From Pontibacter sp. HSC-36F09 (GTDB taxonomy: Bacteria > Bacteroidota > Bacteroidia > Cytophagales > Hymenobacteraceae): 64,000 bases of DNA. How positions within the stretch are numbered: position 1 is the first letter of the stretch; every line of letters starts with the position of its first letter. The stretch covers positions 62,001-126,000 of the forward strand of contig NZ_JALKAA010000006.1 of the NCBI RefSeq assembly GCF_024171605.1. The letters run 5' to 3'. The notes below the pieces were generated by a model. It made no database searches. It was not told the DNA's origin and worked only from the letters and a program-made list of their open reading frames with translations. A program made the position numbers and the translations under genes. Shown piece after piece: positions 17,851-22,979 of this stretch.

Positions 17851-17922
17851 GGTCCGTTCGTCTAGGGGTTAGGACTCCAGATTTTCATTCTGGCAACAGG
17901 GGTTCGATTCCCCTACGGACTA
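17851..17922 (+). tRNA. tRNA-Glu (anticodon TTC)
   Basis: A full cloverleaf is visible. The acceptor arms are GGTCCGT (17851-17857) and ACGGACT (17915-17921), with a G-U closing pair. The D arm contains TAGGGGTTAGGA. The anticodon stem is CCAGA/TCTGG around loop TTTTCAT, giving anticodon TTC. The T arm is CAGGGGTTCGATTCCCCT and the discriminator base is A at 17922. CCA is not encoded. The 3' end and the following bases recur in degenerate form near 19.9 and 21.7 kb. Confidence 0.96.
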
Positions 17923-17926
17923 CTCG

Positions 17927-17960
17927 AAAGCCTCTCAGTTAACGCTGAGAGGCTTTTTTT
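17927..17960 (+). terminator. Hairpin terminator after tRNA-Glu
   Basis: AAAGCCTCTCAG (17927-17938) pairs perfectly with CTGAGAGGCTTT (17945-17956), followed by more Ts. Hairpins with the same AAAGCC...GGCTTT edges but different inner stems follow both tRNA-end repeats downstream. Confidence 0.93.
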
Positions 17961-18353
17961 ATGCGCTCCGGACGCTAAAGGGGCCGTTCTCCTTCTGCAG
18001 AGTTCCAGGAGTTCTTGCTTATAGAAACACCACAAGGCCATAGATAGCTTCAACCCCTTCAGATTTATTTGCTTTTAGGCCTGTGGGCTATAACTCATTA
18101 TACCTAATCTTAGACTCTCACTTACACATCTCCTAAAAATAAAATATTCTGATTCACAGGATGGCAAAATGGAACTTCAGATGCACCACTCGCTTAGTAG
18201 CCTCACTATATCACTACGAATGGCCGTATCATGCAGAGGGAGAGCATGGCAAGTTTTGCTATTAAAAGCTATCTTTAGCCCCGCCTCATTCCGATGGAAA
18301 ATTCATCCCCAAGTGGACGCGGGTGAAACCTGATACCACTAACATGTTGCCAG
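17961..18353. other. Gene-poor stretch after the tRNA
   Basis: I see no convincing gene here. A 34-codon open frame starting at about 18160 (MAKWNFRCTTRLV) is not recognisable. The last TATACCT motif before the 4.3-kb motif-free stretch is at 18099-18105. Confidence 0.4.
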
Positions 18354-19739
18354 ATGACAAAACTCTACTTACTGCTCGCTTTTATACTGATGTCCCTGGG
18401 CGCGCTAGGCCAGAACCTCGTACCCAACGGCGACTTTGAGGAGTACACCACCCTGCCGGTGGAGTCAGGGGAATGGCACAAGCTCAAAAACTGGTCCAAC
18501 GTCAATAAGTACATCCCTTCCAAGTTCCCCTACGGCTCCCCCGATTACTTCCATATTCAGGCAGGACAGGAGGTCCGGTTACCTAATCTCCACAACGCCA
18601 CTGTTAACCCATACTCTGGATCCGCAGTGGCGGGCTTTTTAACCTTCACCAGCGATGTGTCTAACTTCCGGGAGTACCTGTCCGTTCGACTAACCTCCGC
18701 AATGGAGGTGGGAACGAAATACAAGCTATCCTTCTGGGTAAGCAACGGCGGCGGAAAGCTCAGTTATGGTACCGCCAGCAACAACATAGGCGTTTACTTT
18801 TCTACTGCCGCACCCAGGCAGTTCACCCACGAGCCAATTAAGGTCACCCCACAACTTGAAGTGAAAGAAGAGATTTGGTCTAACGAATGGCAGGAAGTCT
18901 CTTTTGACTTTACTGCAGACTCGGCCTACACGCGCCTGACGATAGGCAACTTCTACACCGACACAGAGACGTCCACCTCCGTCCGGATAAAATACACGTA
19001 TAACACAGCCTACTACTATCTTGACAAAGTAGAGGTAGTCGAAATTCCGACGCTCAAGATTACTGGCCAGCTTATGATTTGCAGAGGGGATTCTGCCGTG
19101 CTCAAGGCAGTTAACGGCACTGAGTATAGCTGGGCAGAAAGCACGAGACCGGGAGTAATTCTGTCCACAGCAGAGACGCTAAAGGTTGCGCCAAAACAGG
19201 CCACGACATATGTGGTGAGCAGCAGCACAGAGAACGCCTCCTTTACCGTTCAGGTGAACGAGCCTCCCCTCATCAATCTGGGTGCGGATACCACCCTATG
19301 CCCCGGACAGTCGCTTTACCTCAACCCAGACGTTCCCGGTGCCACGTATAGGTGGCAGGACAACAGCACCGTTCCAAACTACACCATTACCAAGCCCGGC
19401 CTTTATTGGGTGGAGGTGACCTTAAATGGATGTAGCACAAGAGACGAGCTGCAGGTATCGTACAAACATTGTGAGATTACGCTCGTGATGCCCAACATAT
19501 TCACTCCCAATCATGACGGCCTCAATGACTCCTTTAGGCCTATAAAAATGGCTGGTATAGAGCAGGCGTCCCTTTTTATTTACAACCGTTGGGGAAATAG
19601 GGTGTATGCTAGCGAAGACCTCCTGAAAGGGTGGGACGGACAGGGACATGGAGCCGGAAGCTATTTTTGGCAAGCAGTATATATTGATGCGTATGGGAGC
19701 AGGAATTCTTTAAGTGGCACCCTGACACTGGTTCGGTAG
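18354..19739 (+). CDS. Secreted protein with gliding motility-associated (CHU_C/T9SS) C-terminal domain
   Basis: 461 residues. The signal peptide is MTKLYLLLAFILMSLGALG (cleavage before QNLVPNG). Residues 20-235 form a carbohydrate-binding-like beta sandwich (LVPNGDFEEY...LDKVEVVEI). Two Ig-like segments follow (about 238-375), with CRGDSAVL and DTTLCPGQSLYL. The C-terminal 90 residues are the gliding-associated domain, marked by MPNIFTPNHDGLNDSFRP and LFIYNRWGNRVYAS. That domain is the type IX secretion signal in Bacteroidota, so the protein should be exported across the outer membrane. It sits directly downstream of tRNA-Glu in a stretch without the AGGTATA motif, consistent with acquisition; no catalytic site was found. 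Confidence 0.9.
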   Translation: MTKLYLLLAFILMSLGALGQNLVPNGDFEEYTTLPVESGEWHKLKNWSNVNKYIPSKFPYGSPDYFHIQAGQEVRLPNLHNATVNPYSGSAVAGFLTFTSDVSNFREYLSVRLTSAMEVGTKYKLSFWVSNGGGKLSYGTASNNIGVYFSTAAPRQFTHEPIKVTPQLEVKEEIWSNEWQEVSFDFTADSAYTRLTIGNFYTDTETSTSVRIKYTYNTAYYYLDKVEVVEIPTLKITGQLMICRGDSAVLKAVNGTEYSWAESTRPGVILSTAETLKVAPKQATTYVVSSSTENASFTVQVNEPPLINLGADTTLCPGQSLYLNPDVPGATYRWQDNSTVPNYTITKPGLYWVEVTLNGCSTRDELQVSYKHCEITLVMPNIFTPNHDGLNDSFRPIKMAGIEQASLFIYNRWGNRVYASEDLLKGWDGQGHGAGSYFWQAVYIDAYGSRNSLSGTLTLVR

Positions 19740-19877
19740 GCTGCAGTTGGAGGCAAAGACCTTTTGAGTTACAAGGCTGAAACTTGATAGGCCTTTGCCA
19801 ACTCTACCTCTACTGAGCTGCAAAGCTGATCTACTTACTGTCCTTCTAGCTCAAAAGGTCATCAAAAGTTATCAAAT

Positions 19878-19926
19878 CCCTGTGAATAAAGTTCGATAAT
19901 TCAATCCTTCGGTCTACTCGAAAGCC
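19878..19926 (+). repeat. Degenerate tRNA-Glu 3'-end repeat, copy 1
   Basis: These 49 bases match 21641-21689 at 44 of 49 positions. Their last 19 bases (TTCGGTCTACTCGAAAGCC) match the tRNA-Glu 3' end and flank (TACGGACTACTCGAAAGCC) at 17 of 19. They also keep GTTCGAT of the T loop, but carry extra bases between it and the end. No anticodon or D arm precedes, so this is a remnant or attachment-site-like repeat rather than a tRNA. Confidence 0.75.
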
Positions 19927-19953
19927 TATTAGAGCAATCTAATAGGCTTTTTT
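19921..19953 (+). terminator. Hairpin terminator after tRNA-end repeat copy 1
   Basis: AAAGCCTATTAGA (19921-19933) pairs perfectly with TCTAATAGGCTTT (19938-19950) and runs into further Ts. It probably terminates the gliding-type gene. An 11-base inverted repeat, GACCTTTTGAG (19759-19769) and CTCAAAAGGTC (19850-19860), lies just before it. Confidence 0.88.
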
Positions 19954-20143
19954 ATTTTATTTCTGTCACCTAAGCAGCCCCCCAACCGCTTGGCTTCAAG
20001 AATACAATAATTTTATAAACTATAAGTAACTGGACAAAGGCGAATCCAGCAGTTCCTGCTGTCTTTCCTCTAATTTCGTGACTCTCGACGATAGCCAAGC
20101 GGTGTTAGGAGACAAAATACATCTATTCGTCTAAAAGGTTATT

Positions 20144-20190
20144 AAATATATACACAGTACCTTGTATTACAAAGTACTGTGTATATATTT
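20144..20190. promoter_or_regulatory. 47-base near-perfect palindrome
   Basis: The left arm AAATATATACACAGTAC (20144-20160) is exactly complementary to GTACTGTGTATATATTT (20174-20190). The central 13 bases also pair (TTGTA/TACAA), with a single C-A mismatch. Two-fold symmetry at this length suggests an operator or recombination/attachment site. There is no T-run, so a terminator is unlikely. It is the main feature of the 19956-20324 gap upstream of the hydrolase gene. Confidence 0.7.
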
Positions 20191-20324
20191 GTACCACTTA
20201 CTCCCCACATTACCTGGTACCTAAATAGCAGTCTTTGTTTTTAGGATATTCGGAATAAGTAACTGCACCTGTTATAATGACAACCTTGATAAATTTCCAT
20301 CTTCTCTTATAAACAACTAAAACT

Positions 20325-21566
20325 ATGACGATCAAAAGAACACTATTGCTGCTGTTTTTCTTCGGGAGCATCATGTTGGCGAATGCCCAACAAACAAAAA
20401 TGATTAATGTCGGGGATCACTCGCTTGAGATGATACAGGCAGGGGCTGGCGAATATACCGTGATCTTTGAATCAGGCTTCGGGACAGACTACAAAGTATG
20501 GGGCAATGTGGCTGCAGAAGTGCTGAATTCGAACCAGGTGATGCTGTATTCAAGAGCCGGAACAGGCAGATCAGAAGCAAACCCGAAACCTCAAACCCTG
20601 GAGGCAGCTGTACAGGATCTGAACACCCTCATTGATCAGGCAAACCTGAAACCGCCTTTCATCTTAGTGGGCCATTCGTACGGCGCCTTCATTATCCGGG
20701 CCTATGCGGCGCAGCATCCGGATAAAGTGAAAGGGCTGGTCTTTGTTGATCCGGCGCATGAAAAAATGATGCAGGAACTGAAAAAGGCAGATCATGCCAA
20801 AGCGATCAAAGACATGGAGCTGCAAAACAGCTTTATACCAGACAGGTTCAAGCAAGAGAACGAAGCCATCAACAGGATTTTTGAAAAAGCTGCTTTGCCT
20901 GATTTCGGAAAGTTGCCACAAGTACCGGCTCTAGTGCTTACCTCTGTGCAGAAAAGGGCTAACCCGGAATTGTTTCTCCATCAACCAAAAGGCGTGGAAG
21001 TATGGCGAAAGCTGCACAACGATTTTTTCAGCCAGTTTACCAGCGGCGCGCATGTAATAACGGCCAATAGTGGCCATAACATACACAGAGAAGAGCCGGA
21101 ACTGGTGATCAACGCCATCAGGCAGGTGGTGCAAGCGGCAACGAAGGAAAAAGCTCGGCAAGAGCACGAAGCCAAAATGACGGCCTTAGATAATAAATTC
21201 GTGCAGGCGGACACGTACCTGAAGCAGCGAAAAGAATCCAAAGCCGAAGCAATCGTGTTTGATGGGTTAAAAGGCTCCGGATTCGACGAGCGCACCATCA
21301 ACACCATCGCCTACCAGTATCTTAACAACCCGGCCACATTGCCGGTTTCCCTGCTGATTTTCAAGTATAACACGGTGGCTAATGCTAGCTCGGCCAATGC
21401 CTTCGATAGCTACGGGGAAGCCCTGCTTAGGCAAGGCAGGCTAAAGCAGGCTGAGGAGCAGCTCCAGAAAGCCATCGAACTCGCCACTGCTGCCAACGAC
21501 ACCTCCACGCTTAAAAACAGTAAGAGCAATCTGGAAAAGATTAACCAGCTAAAAAGGTCTAAATGA
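20325..21566 (+). CDS. Secreted alpha/beta hydrolase with C-terminal helical repeats
   Basis: 413 residues with a signal peptide (RTLLLLFFFGSIMLANA, cleavage before QQT). The alpha/beta-hydrolase domain spans about 25-270: oxyanion region FESGFGTDYKVW, nucleophile elbow LVGHSYGAF, acid in a VPALVLTSV-type strand, and catalytic His in ANSGHNIHREEP. The C-terminal 130 residues are alpha-helical with a TPR-like end (YGEALLRQGRLKQAEEQLQKAIELATAAND), unusual for this fold and perhaps for protein binding. The substrate is unknown. It lies between the two tRNA-end repeats with its own hairpin terminator, and has no AGGTATA motif copies. Confidence 0.88.
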   Translation: MTIKRTLLLLFFFGSIMLANAQQTKMINVGDHSLEMIQAGAGEYTVIFESGFGTDYKVWGNVAAEVLNSNQVMLYSRAGTGRSEANPKPQTLEAAVQDLNTLIDQANLKPPFILVGHSYGAFIIRAYAAQHPDKVKGLVFVDPAHEKMMQELKKADHAKAIKDMELQNSFIPDRFKQENEAINRIFEKAALPDFGKLPQVPALVLTSVQKRANPELFLHQPKGVEVWRKLHNDFFSQFTSGAHVITANSGHNIHREEPELVINAIRQVVQAATKEKARQEHEAKMTALDNKFVQADTYLKQRKESKAEAIVFDGLKGSGFDERTINTIAYQYLNNPATLPVSLLIFKYNTVANASSANAFDSYGEALLRQGRLKQAEEQLQKAIELATAANDTSTLKNSKSNLEKINQLKRSK

Positions 21567-21640
21567 CTGCAAGGATAGCATCAACTATCTGTTCTTCAGC
21601 TCCTCTTCCATGTAAAGATAAGCTTCTAGAACAGCCAGAT

Positions 21641-21689
21641 CACTGTGGACAAGGTTCGATAATTCAATCCTTTGGTCTACTCGAAAGCC
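21641..21689 (+). repeat. Degenerate tRNA-Glu 3'-end repeat, copy 2
   Basis: The second copy of the 49-base element (44/49 identity to 19878-19926), ending GGTCTACTCGAAAGCC like the sequence just past tRNA-Glu. The spacing between the three tRNA-end copies is about 2.0 and 1.8 kb, with exactly one gene in each interval. Confidence 0.75.
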
Positions 21690-21719
21690 GCTTCAGATAA
21701 AACTGGAGCGGCTTTTTTT
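21684..21719 (+). terminator. Hairpin terminator after tRNA-end repeat copy 2
   Basis: AAAGCCGCTTCAG (21684-21696) pairs with CTGGAGCGGCTTT (21703-21715), with one G-U pair, followed by Ts. It probably ends the hydrolase transcript. Confidence 0.87.
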
Positions 21720-21904: not shown

Positions 21905-22869
21905 AGATACCAAAAAGTACAGATTCCCTTGCTGTTGTTTGCAGCCTCTGCTATGTTTTCAGGGCCAATGCTCAGACTTCTCAGGTCTAATCAGGTGTAA
22001 AATAGACCAATATCTATGACGCGTTCGGCGCTGAAAACGCTGGGCTAAAGCAGGATTTTGGTTTCTCTTGCCTGATAGAGCACAAGGGGAAGGTGATATT
22101 ATATGACGCCGGTATAAACTCGGATACATTCCGGTAAAACCTAGCCACGTTAAACATCGACCCTACAGAAATCGATGTGGCTATTTAATCTCACGGTCTA
22201 TACGACCATATGGGCGGTCTGGATTACCTGCTCAGCGTTAACCCAAACGTTAAAATTTACCATCCAAATGACTTCTTCTGGCGTGATGCACCGTTTAAGT
22301 TTCCTTTCCGTGACAAGGAGCCTAATGCAGCAAAGGCTTTTATAAAATATGAGTAGTACTTTCGAGGCGAACAGCTGTTAGATGGCATGGTGACTGTACC
22401 GACCGGCAGGATCTGGAAATGGGATGTCATATACCTGACTAAAGCAGAGGAAGTACTGCCGGGTCTGACTATCATTCCAACGACTTCTTAGTTAATGGGC
22501 ACCTTCATCAAATTCCCGCCGCACGAAAACAATCCGCAGTTTATCGGCATGCCCGAACTATCGGCTTCGATTTCTACCGAGGAAGGACAACTCATCCTAG
22601 CCGGATGCTCGCACTCCACCATCGAAACCATCATCCAGGAAACCCTGAAAGTTCGAAAAGAGAACATTCGATTGGTAACCGGAGGCTTTCACCTGATCCA
22701 CTACGACCGCGCCTACATTGAAGGGCTGGCAAAACGCATGCACGGAGATTATGGGGTGGAACAGGTCCCGCCCGCCCATTGCACCGGGCATCTTGGCTTC
22801 TCTGTTTTCAAACAGGTTTTCGGTGACAGGTATAAGTTCTTTGGACTTGGTGAAACGCTCCAATTTTAG
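21905..22869 (+). pseudogene. Decayed secreted metallo-beta-lactamase-fold hydrolase
   Basis: The frame holding the intact 22495-22869 stretch can be followed upstream to about 21963 as MBL-fold protein: TNIYDAFGAENAGLK, then DFGFSCLIEHKGKVILYDAG, then DPTEIDVAI-stop-SHGLYDHMGGLDYL (the metal motif, normally SHxHxDH). It is broken by stops at 21988, 22003, 22135, 22186, 22354 and 22489. The start of the signal peptide (IPLLLFAASAMFSG) sits one frame away from ANAQTSQ, so there is also a one-base deletion near 21962. The C-terminal part keeps LAGCSHSTIETII and VPPAHCTGHLGF, as in MBL hydrolases related to arylsulfatase/quinolone-response enzymes. The metal motif has SHGLYDH, with Leu in place of His. 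Confidence 0.85.
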
Positions 22870-22979
22870 GTCAGAAGTGAATACCTATTTAGGCCTTAGG
22901 GAAAACCCATTTTGCGTCACATACGGAATCTAAGTCGCGCATCTGTATAAATGACATCATAGGAAGCGTCCATAAAAAA

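Follow-up and report, generated by a model that had tools for sequence, protein, structure and literature searches.

The gene cassettes of integrons are small units that lie in arrays, carry a conserved site at their 3' side and are moved by an integrase that acts in trans. A different arrangement is found in the partitioned integrases of archaeal elements of the SSV type, where the attachment site of the element (attP) lies inside the gene for a tyrosine integrase, the target is a tRNA gene and the integrase gene is cut in two. Here we analyse a stretch of 64,000 nucleotides from Pontibacter sp. HSC-36F09 (the window, G000:C6:62001-126000 of the 4.43-Mb genome G000; positions given without a contig are in window numbering), in which two short cassettes stand in line behind a tRNA-Glu gene. 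They recall integron cassettes as small, arrayed units with a conserved 3' site and an enzyme that would act in trans, but their target is a tRNA gene, they insert beside tRNA-Glu and not at an attI beside an integron integrase, their genes show no strong orientation bias, and the enzyme that we propose is a serine recombinase. As in the SSV type, attP would lie in a recombinase gene with a tRNA as target, whereas here the enzyme would stay whole and its tail alone would change, instead of the gene being split. Genomic islands of tyrosine integrases at tRNA genes share a long identity with the tRNA 3' end, whereas the right end of these cassettes shares only GG.CTAC with it; separate tRNA fragments of 15-22 nt mark other elements.

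Two further systems come close. Stacks of staphylococcal cassette chromosome (SCC) elements at orfX include regions without a recombinase (PMC3637587). The likeness is one of layout: serine-recombinase elements are stacked at the end of one gene, together with recombinase-less regions and composite remnants. The differences lie in the target, which is orfX/rlmH for SCC and tRNA-Glu here, in the presence of units as small as 1.4-2 kb, and in an attachment site inside the recombinase gene. The Pontibacter system works like SCC and is not a member of it, and the tail switch proposed below is its novel part. In the mycobacteriophage BPs, attP lies inside the reading frame of the repressor, and integration changes the C terminus of this protein, from 136 to 103 residues (PMC4557955, PMC9262239). 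Integration alters in BPs, and would alter here, the C terminus of a product whose frame holds attP; the BPs gene encodes a repressor, whereas here it would be the serine recombinase itself that receives a new tail, from the antisense strand of a tRNA. A recombinase gene that contains its own attachment site is the unusual part of the system. Within their family, which is common in Pontibacter and which we did not find described elsewhere, the window cassettes are ordinary; our literature search, which covered few subscription journals, returned no report of Pontibacter tRNA-Glu cassettes or of an attP inside a serine recombinase gene.

Cassettes behind tRNA-Glu

We read positions 17924-21680 as two non-autonomous, site-specific cassettes that were inserted successively at the 3' end of tRNA-Glu, a serine recombinase likely acting in trans, and give this reading a probability of about 0.74. 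Both cassettes are non-autonomous, single-gene units: each interval holds one long open reading frame (ORF), for a protein sorted by the type IX secretion system (T9SS) in the first and for a hydrolase in the second, as an earlier note made from the letters of the window had already stated. That note took the locus for three tRNA-Glu 3' ends in line. The 13-mer CTACTCGAAAGCC has indeed three exact occurrences in the genome, all at this locus and all on the + strand, with no control matches, and the 34-nt element GGTTCGATAATTC...CTACTCGAAA has two at up to three mismatches, both at this locus. However, only the first copy is a tRNA end; judged by alignment, the second and third are not copies of the tRNA and constitute the right end of a mobile-element family. 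Among 86 aligned copies, a conserved block of about 80 nt with a sequence of its own runs up to CTAC, with little conservation past it, and this right end, which finishes in GGTCTAC, has nothing but GG.CTAC in common with tRNA-Glu. The TCGAAAGCC that the copies also have in common is not part of the right end; it comes from the left end of the following cassette.

The hairpin behind each CTAC shows AAAGCC...GGCTTT edges, a T run and a core that differs between the copies, just as had been noted; what had gone unrecognised is that it constitutes the left end of the next cassette. The hairpins differ because each cassette carries its own. A stem with a T run lies within the first 75 nt of 147 of 148 left ends; in a control region placed 400 nt farther along, 34 of 148 have one. 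These hairpins would terminate the transcription of tRNA-Glu. The crossover lies to the left of the hairpin, and therefore each cassette would bring its own tRNA-Glu terminator. In one hairpin class of left ends (e.g., L023:1574 onward and L108:18928 onward), the hairpin precedes GGTTCGATAA...CCCCTTCGG, a sequence some 45 nt past CTAC that is similar, in direct orientation, to a portion of the right end; this is perhaps a minimal nested unit.

The boundaries of the cassettes, their precise presence or absence, their movement as units and the anatomy of the larger islands described below all emerge from comparison among related genomes. In G012, where the gap protein upstream is 99% identical, the left end of cassette 2 comes immediately after the tRNA, and the alignment with the window genome from this left end through the right end reaches 95.9% identity over 1,817 columns. 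It follows that cassette 1 was either inserted cleanly or, in G012, cleanly lost. The empty site, which lacks exactly cassette 1, bears out the earlier suggestion that insertions entered a tRNA attachment site step by step and that every step left an att-like copy behind; each newcomer is placed next to the tRNA, ahead of the cassette already there. In G003, a different left end follows the gap-linked tRNA-Glu, and cassette 2 is found at a second tRNA-Glu, orthologous to the one at G000:C3:66061 (upstream identity of 89.9%). The copies of cassette 2 in G000 and G003 are 89.2% identical over 1,745 bp and the identity ends exactly at the right end, while their first 26 nt differ. A cassette of 2,240 bp occurs in at least two contexts in G032, with 100% identity behind a tRNA-Glu and behind another right end and with two different downstream neighbours, these lying at contig ends and one copy being seen over 1,341 bp only. 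Moreover, there are eight pairs in which the same left end (from nt 1-5 after CTAC) follows a tRNA at one locus and a right end at another; we looked for similarity upstream in these eight pairs and found none. One of the pairs lies within G032, and another links the left end at G000:C3:537298 to a copy behind a right end in G016 (85.6% over 699 bp).

The right end is frequent in the genus. A 28-nt pattern derived from it (up to three mismatches) matches in 43 of 50 Pontibacter genomes, with a control of 0, and a near-identical 27-nt pattern (up to two mismatches) matches in 51 of 200 genomes of the family, from three of six genera. A scan of 84,980 species genomes gave 45 stretches with exact matches, 44 from Pontibacter and one from Botryobacter, and there were no exact matches in viral contigs. 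As the earlier note had expected, the element is tied to tRNA-Glu and not scattered: in 72 of the 78 pairs of tRNA-Glu and right end on the same stretch, the right end lies downstream and in the orientation of the tRNA. Four of the exceptions are upstream, all of them in G049 and behind a first tRNA-Glu, and two, in G036, are in the opposite orientation. The cargo is diverse, and ORFs of at least 100 amino acids in 44 intervals shorter than 6 kb (58 on the + strand and 46 on the - strand) show no strong bias in orientation. An ORF common to the right ends was considered and rejected, since, of the ORFs upstream of 98 right ends, no more than 7 fall into any one cluster.

A serine recombinase gene that enters the tRNA

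No integrase had been seen at this locus, which holds true for the whole genome as far as the family described here is concerned (no match at E <= 1e-20), but a family of serine recombinases is present in relatives. One class of left ends encodes, on the reverse strand, a serine recombinase of about 590-605 amino acids whose frame crosses the hairpin into antisense tRNA-Glu, from which its C terminus, V[VA]RRGIEPLL[PL]E, is read. The Resolvase (PF00239) and Recombinase (PF07508) domains score above cut-off in all three proteins scanned, which come from related genomes, and the zinc ribbon PF13408 reaches 18.7-23.5 bits, below its cut-off of 25.3. The nearest solved chains by sequence are 3guv, a resolvase-family protein, and the TP901-1 and A118 integrases; a structure model of poor quality (mean predicted local distance difference test score, pLDDT, of 50) was not used. 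The 50 genomes contain 19 matches of at least 60% identity that cover most of the recombinase, two of them with one internal stop. Among these near-complete recombinases, 14 abut tRNA-Glu (counting G037, where the tRNA was matched over nt 13-73 only), four abut a tRNA fragment of 15-22 nt and one is at a contig edge. The four (G045C4, G049C6, G039C17 and G047C66) lie behind a fragment of the tRNA-Glu 3' end and not behind the whole tRNA, which suggests that other element families use the same tRNA.

The islands that carry the recombinase measure 15-66 kb up to the first accepted right end, except for the one in G029b, with 12 kb and an internal stop in its recombinase, and they end in the same right end as the window cassettes. 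No copy of the 14-nt tRNA 3' end precedes the first right end in 11 arrays with the recombinase at tRNA-Glu. The core common to attP and its chromosomal target attB, the GG.CTAC of right end and tRNA, is very short, as in elements of large serine recombinases. Beside the recombinase, a protein of about 300 amino acids (e.g., L124:3807-4745) is encoded in 16 of 17 stitched arrays, the exception being G029b. Of two members scanned, one shows weak similarity to MerR (18.6 bits, below cut-off); the protein is a candidate directionality factor. Searches for the recombinase outside chromosomes returned no match in plasmids at 1e-30, nine phage records at 1e-20, all below 60% identity, and a single distant relative in viral contigs, with 22% identity.

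The recombinase gene points from the left end to the tRNA, which places the attachment site inside the 3' end of the gene. When right end and left end are joined in silico, the recombinase frame runs on into a tail like VDRRIELSNLIHRDLAFLNNYIVVEEEV: the predicted circle would add about 25 residues coded by the right end, VDRR.ELSN.IHRDL.AL..YL. This junction is in frame in 13 of the 15 informative islands among 17 arrays, leaving out G043, whose right end is cut by the contig end, and G008, where no right end was found; in G031, a weak partial match (E 6e-4) was skipped and the next right end was taken. A stronger link than this count is the coupling between recombinase type and tail. An N-HF tail occurs with seven of nine type-i recombinases (85-100% identity to the reference) and with none of six of type ii (60-67%), with a one-sided Fisher probability of 36/6435 = 0.006, calculated by hand and post hoc, as the pattern had been seen in the first ten islands. 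It was first seen in 10 of 11 islands, the eleventh being G029b (stop, YF), and was then extended by four more, of which G047, G039 and G045C4 fit and G049 does not. For G002, the second right end was used in the initial joining and the first one, frame-shifted and non-HF by sequence, in the count, and the HF/FI class of G029a and G047 was read from the tail sequence, the automatic reading being off. The coupling is not simply an effect of the genome, because those right ends that come later within an array form a mixture. Fusions of the recombinase C terminus with the tail are also present, as relics behind right ends, in the DNA of G009, G008 and G013.

The tail is probably coding, to judge from 139 right ends. 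Its frame has 23 stops in all over the first 21 codons, whereas the other two frames have many, although the first nine of these codons lie in the motif by which the 139 copies were selected. Of the 122 tail frames open at codon 21, 98 stop by codon 29, clustering at codons 23-28, the corresponding figures for the other frames being 86 and 57 of 139. Likewise, the ratio of nonsynonymous to synonymous polymorphism (pN/pS) over codons 13-23 is lowest in the tail frame, at 0.67 against 0.76-1.01. A stand-alone peptide gene started by ATG within the right end was rejected, since the ATG is there in part of the copies only and the coding signal is better accounted for by a recombinase frame that runs on.

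Proposed mechanism and its alternatives

A cassette extends from the base after CTAC, where a left end with a hairpin able to replace the tRNA terminator begins, to the right end of about 80 nt. Beyond this anatomy and that of the islands, we infer the following steps, with the serine recombinase as the mover. The incoming circle would carry attP, composed of right end plus left end, and a long-tailed recombinase would join it with the tRNA-Glu 3' end at CTAC. Integration would thereby restore the tRNA with a new hairpin and leave the right end at the far side. The integrated recombinase would now end in a short antisense-tRNA tail, its tail of about 25 residues having been swapped out, and a further insertion between tRNA and island would make the older recombinase long-tailed again. 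Small cassettes with the same right end would be moved in trans by the recombinase of an island. As to a function of the tail swap, C-terminal parts of serine integrases govern directionality, and for this reason the tail might act as a direction control. The recombinase would then edit itself: replacing about 25 residues by 12 antisense-tRNA-Glu residues would be a built-in switch, with integration on one side and a locked (or excising) form on the other, with cassettes that use the enzyme in trans and the tRNA as an open docking site across the genus. We advance this last idea tentatively and regard it as rather doubtful.

Several observations speak against the account given so far. We saw relic fusions only, and neither a circular form nor an intact recombinase gene with the long tail; nor does the recombinase family have a match at E <= 1e-20 in G000, in G012 or in G032, the genome with the duplicate cassette. 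Two of the 15 circle junctions are not in frame, with a stop at codon 3 in G029b and a frame-shifted first right end in G002. An open tail frame is in fact general among right ends, 124 of 139 having no stop before codon 18, and therefore 13 of 15 alone is no proof of pairing. The coupling has two type-i exceptions, G049 with an LI tail and G029b with YF, and the codon evidence is moderate, since one of the antisense frames has a pN/pS below that of the tail frame over codons 4-23 (0.61 vs 0.71). Lastly, quasi-palindromic attP half-sites, a feature of large serine recombinase elements, found no support: a simple shuffle test for inverted symmetry gave p <0.05 in 0 of 12 elements, the lowest value being 0.051.

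The lack of a recombinase match in the window genome would also fit the idea that the cassettes were once recombinase islands, which decayed, shrank by internal deletion and are no longer mobile, and so would the recombinase frames seen directly behind right ends, which are broken or short (at most 102 amino acids). However, single-gene units keep exact ends, lie at a different tRNA-Glu gene in another species and exist in identical copies, and the small size of the largest upstream-ORF cluster bespeaks a varied cargo, all of which makes decay an improbable explanation.

Much less probable is an integron-like movement by a tyrosine recombinase, such as the integron-type integrase found near a few right ends. 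This enzyme, which ends in KIVSPLDNL (loci L156-L185, e.g., L156:1501-2955) and whose domain matches, TIGR02249 and NF040815, are both below cut-off, is common, being present in 43 of 50 Pontibacter genomes at E <= 1e-40. It lies about 500 bp inside the right end in G036, G001 and G002, and right-end copies of G008, G021 and G038 are near such an integrase as well. Nevertheless, 27 of 30 integrase loci lack a right end within the fetched flanks, and we rejected the enzyme as the motor; most loci among the 20 matches listed share a downstream site of their own, the orientation of cassette ORFs is nearly balanced, and right end and tRNA have only GG.CTAC in common. The site downstream of the integrase is CATAGTGCAGATAAGC...TAGTT, and the loci are probably chromosomal integrons.

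We give equally little credit to homologous recombination or transformation between tRNA-Glu arrays, with no site-specific enzyme involved. Most genomes have about three tRNA-Glu genes, which together with the repeated ends offer homology, and in the window the tRNA has 13 nt in common with the right ends, but many species show boundaries that are precise down to CTAC with hardly any shared sequence other than GG.CTAC. Three look-alike copies in a row might suggest chance, or that the tRNA end had simply been duplicated together with its terminator; this is refuted by the comparison, in which the family extends across the genus, the empty site is exact and the conserved end of 80 nt does not resemble tRNA-Glu.

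Successive insertion of cassettes by a serine recombinase thus stays our preferred reading, and it explains much of the accessory DNA near Pontibacter tRNA-Glu genes as stacks of precise cassettes. The tail swap would offer a testable answer to the open question of direction control in serine integrases, as integration itself would alter the C terminus of the enzyme, and a compact, single-gene docking system at a tRNA could serve as a genetic tool in Bacteroidota.

Features of the window and related loci

Table 1. Positions of tRNA-Glu, the two cassettes and their parts in the window.
Feature	Position	Strand	Remarks
tRNA-Glu(ttc), insertion target	17851..17923	+	Sole tRNA found in the window
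Terminal CTAC of tRNA-Glu	17920-17923	+	Crossover in or adjoining it
Cassette 1, 1,994 bp	17924..19917	+	Newest insertion by position; without counterpart at the same locus of G012
Hairpin and T run, cassette 1 left end	17927..17956	+	Putative tRNA terminator
Cassette 1 cargo, 461-aa protein with CHU_C / T9SS type B sorting domain	18354..19739	+	ORF and domain scan
Cassette 1 right end, attR-like	19838..19917	+	Profile match 19851-19917, E 7e-16; profile includes this copy
Cassette 2, 1,763 bp	19918..21680	+	At gap-linked tRNA-Glu in G012; at other tRNA-Glu in G003
Hairpin and T run, cassette 2 left end	19921..19950	+	
Cassette 2 cargo, 413-aa alpha/beta hydrolase, signal-like N terminus	20325..21566	+	
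Cassette 2 right end	21601..21680	+	Profile match 21613-21680, E 1.4e-18; profile includes this copy
Hairpin, left end of next, older unit	21684..21714	+	

More distant serine recombinases at other loci (L201, L202, L204, L207, L209 and L210) abut tRNA-Met, tRNA-Leu and tRNA-Arg, and their frames enter the antisense tRNA; the self-editing layout may be general in these bacteria. Past the second right end of the window, the 124-aa ORF at 22495-22869 had no Pfam match; by eye, the region 21950-22870 looks like a broken hydrolase of the metallo-beta-lactamase fold with in-frame stops.

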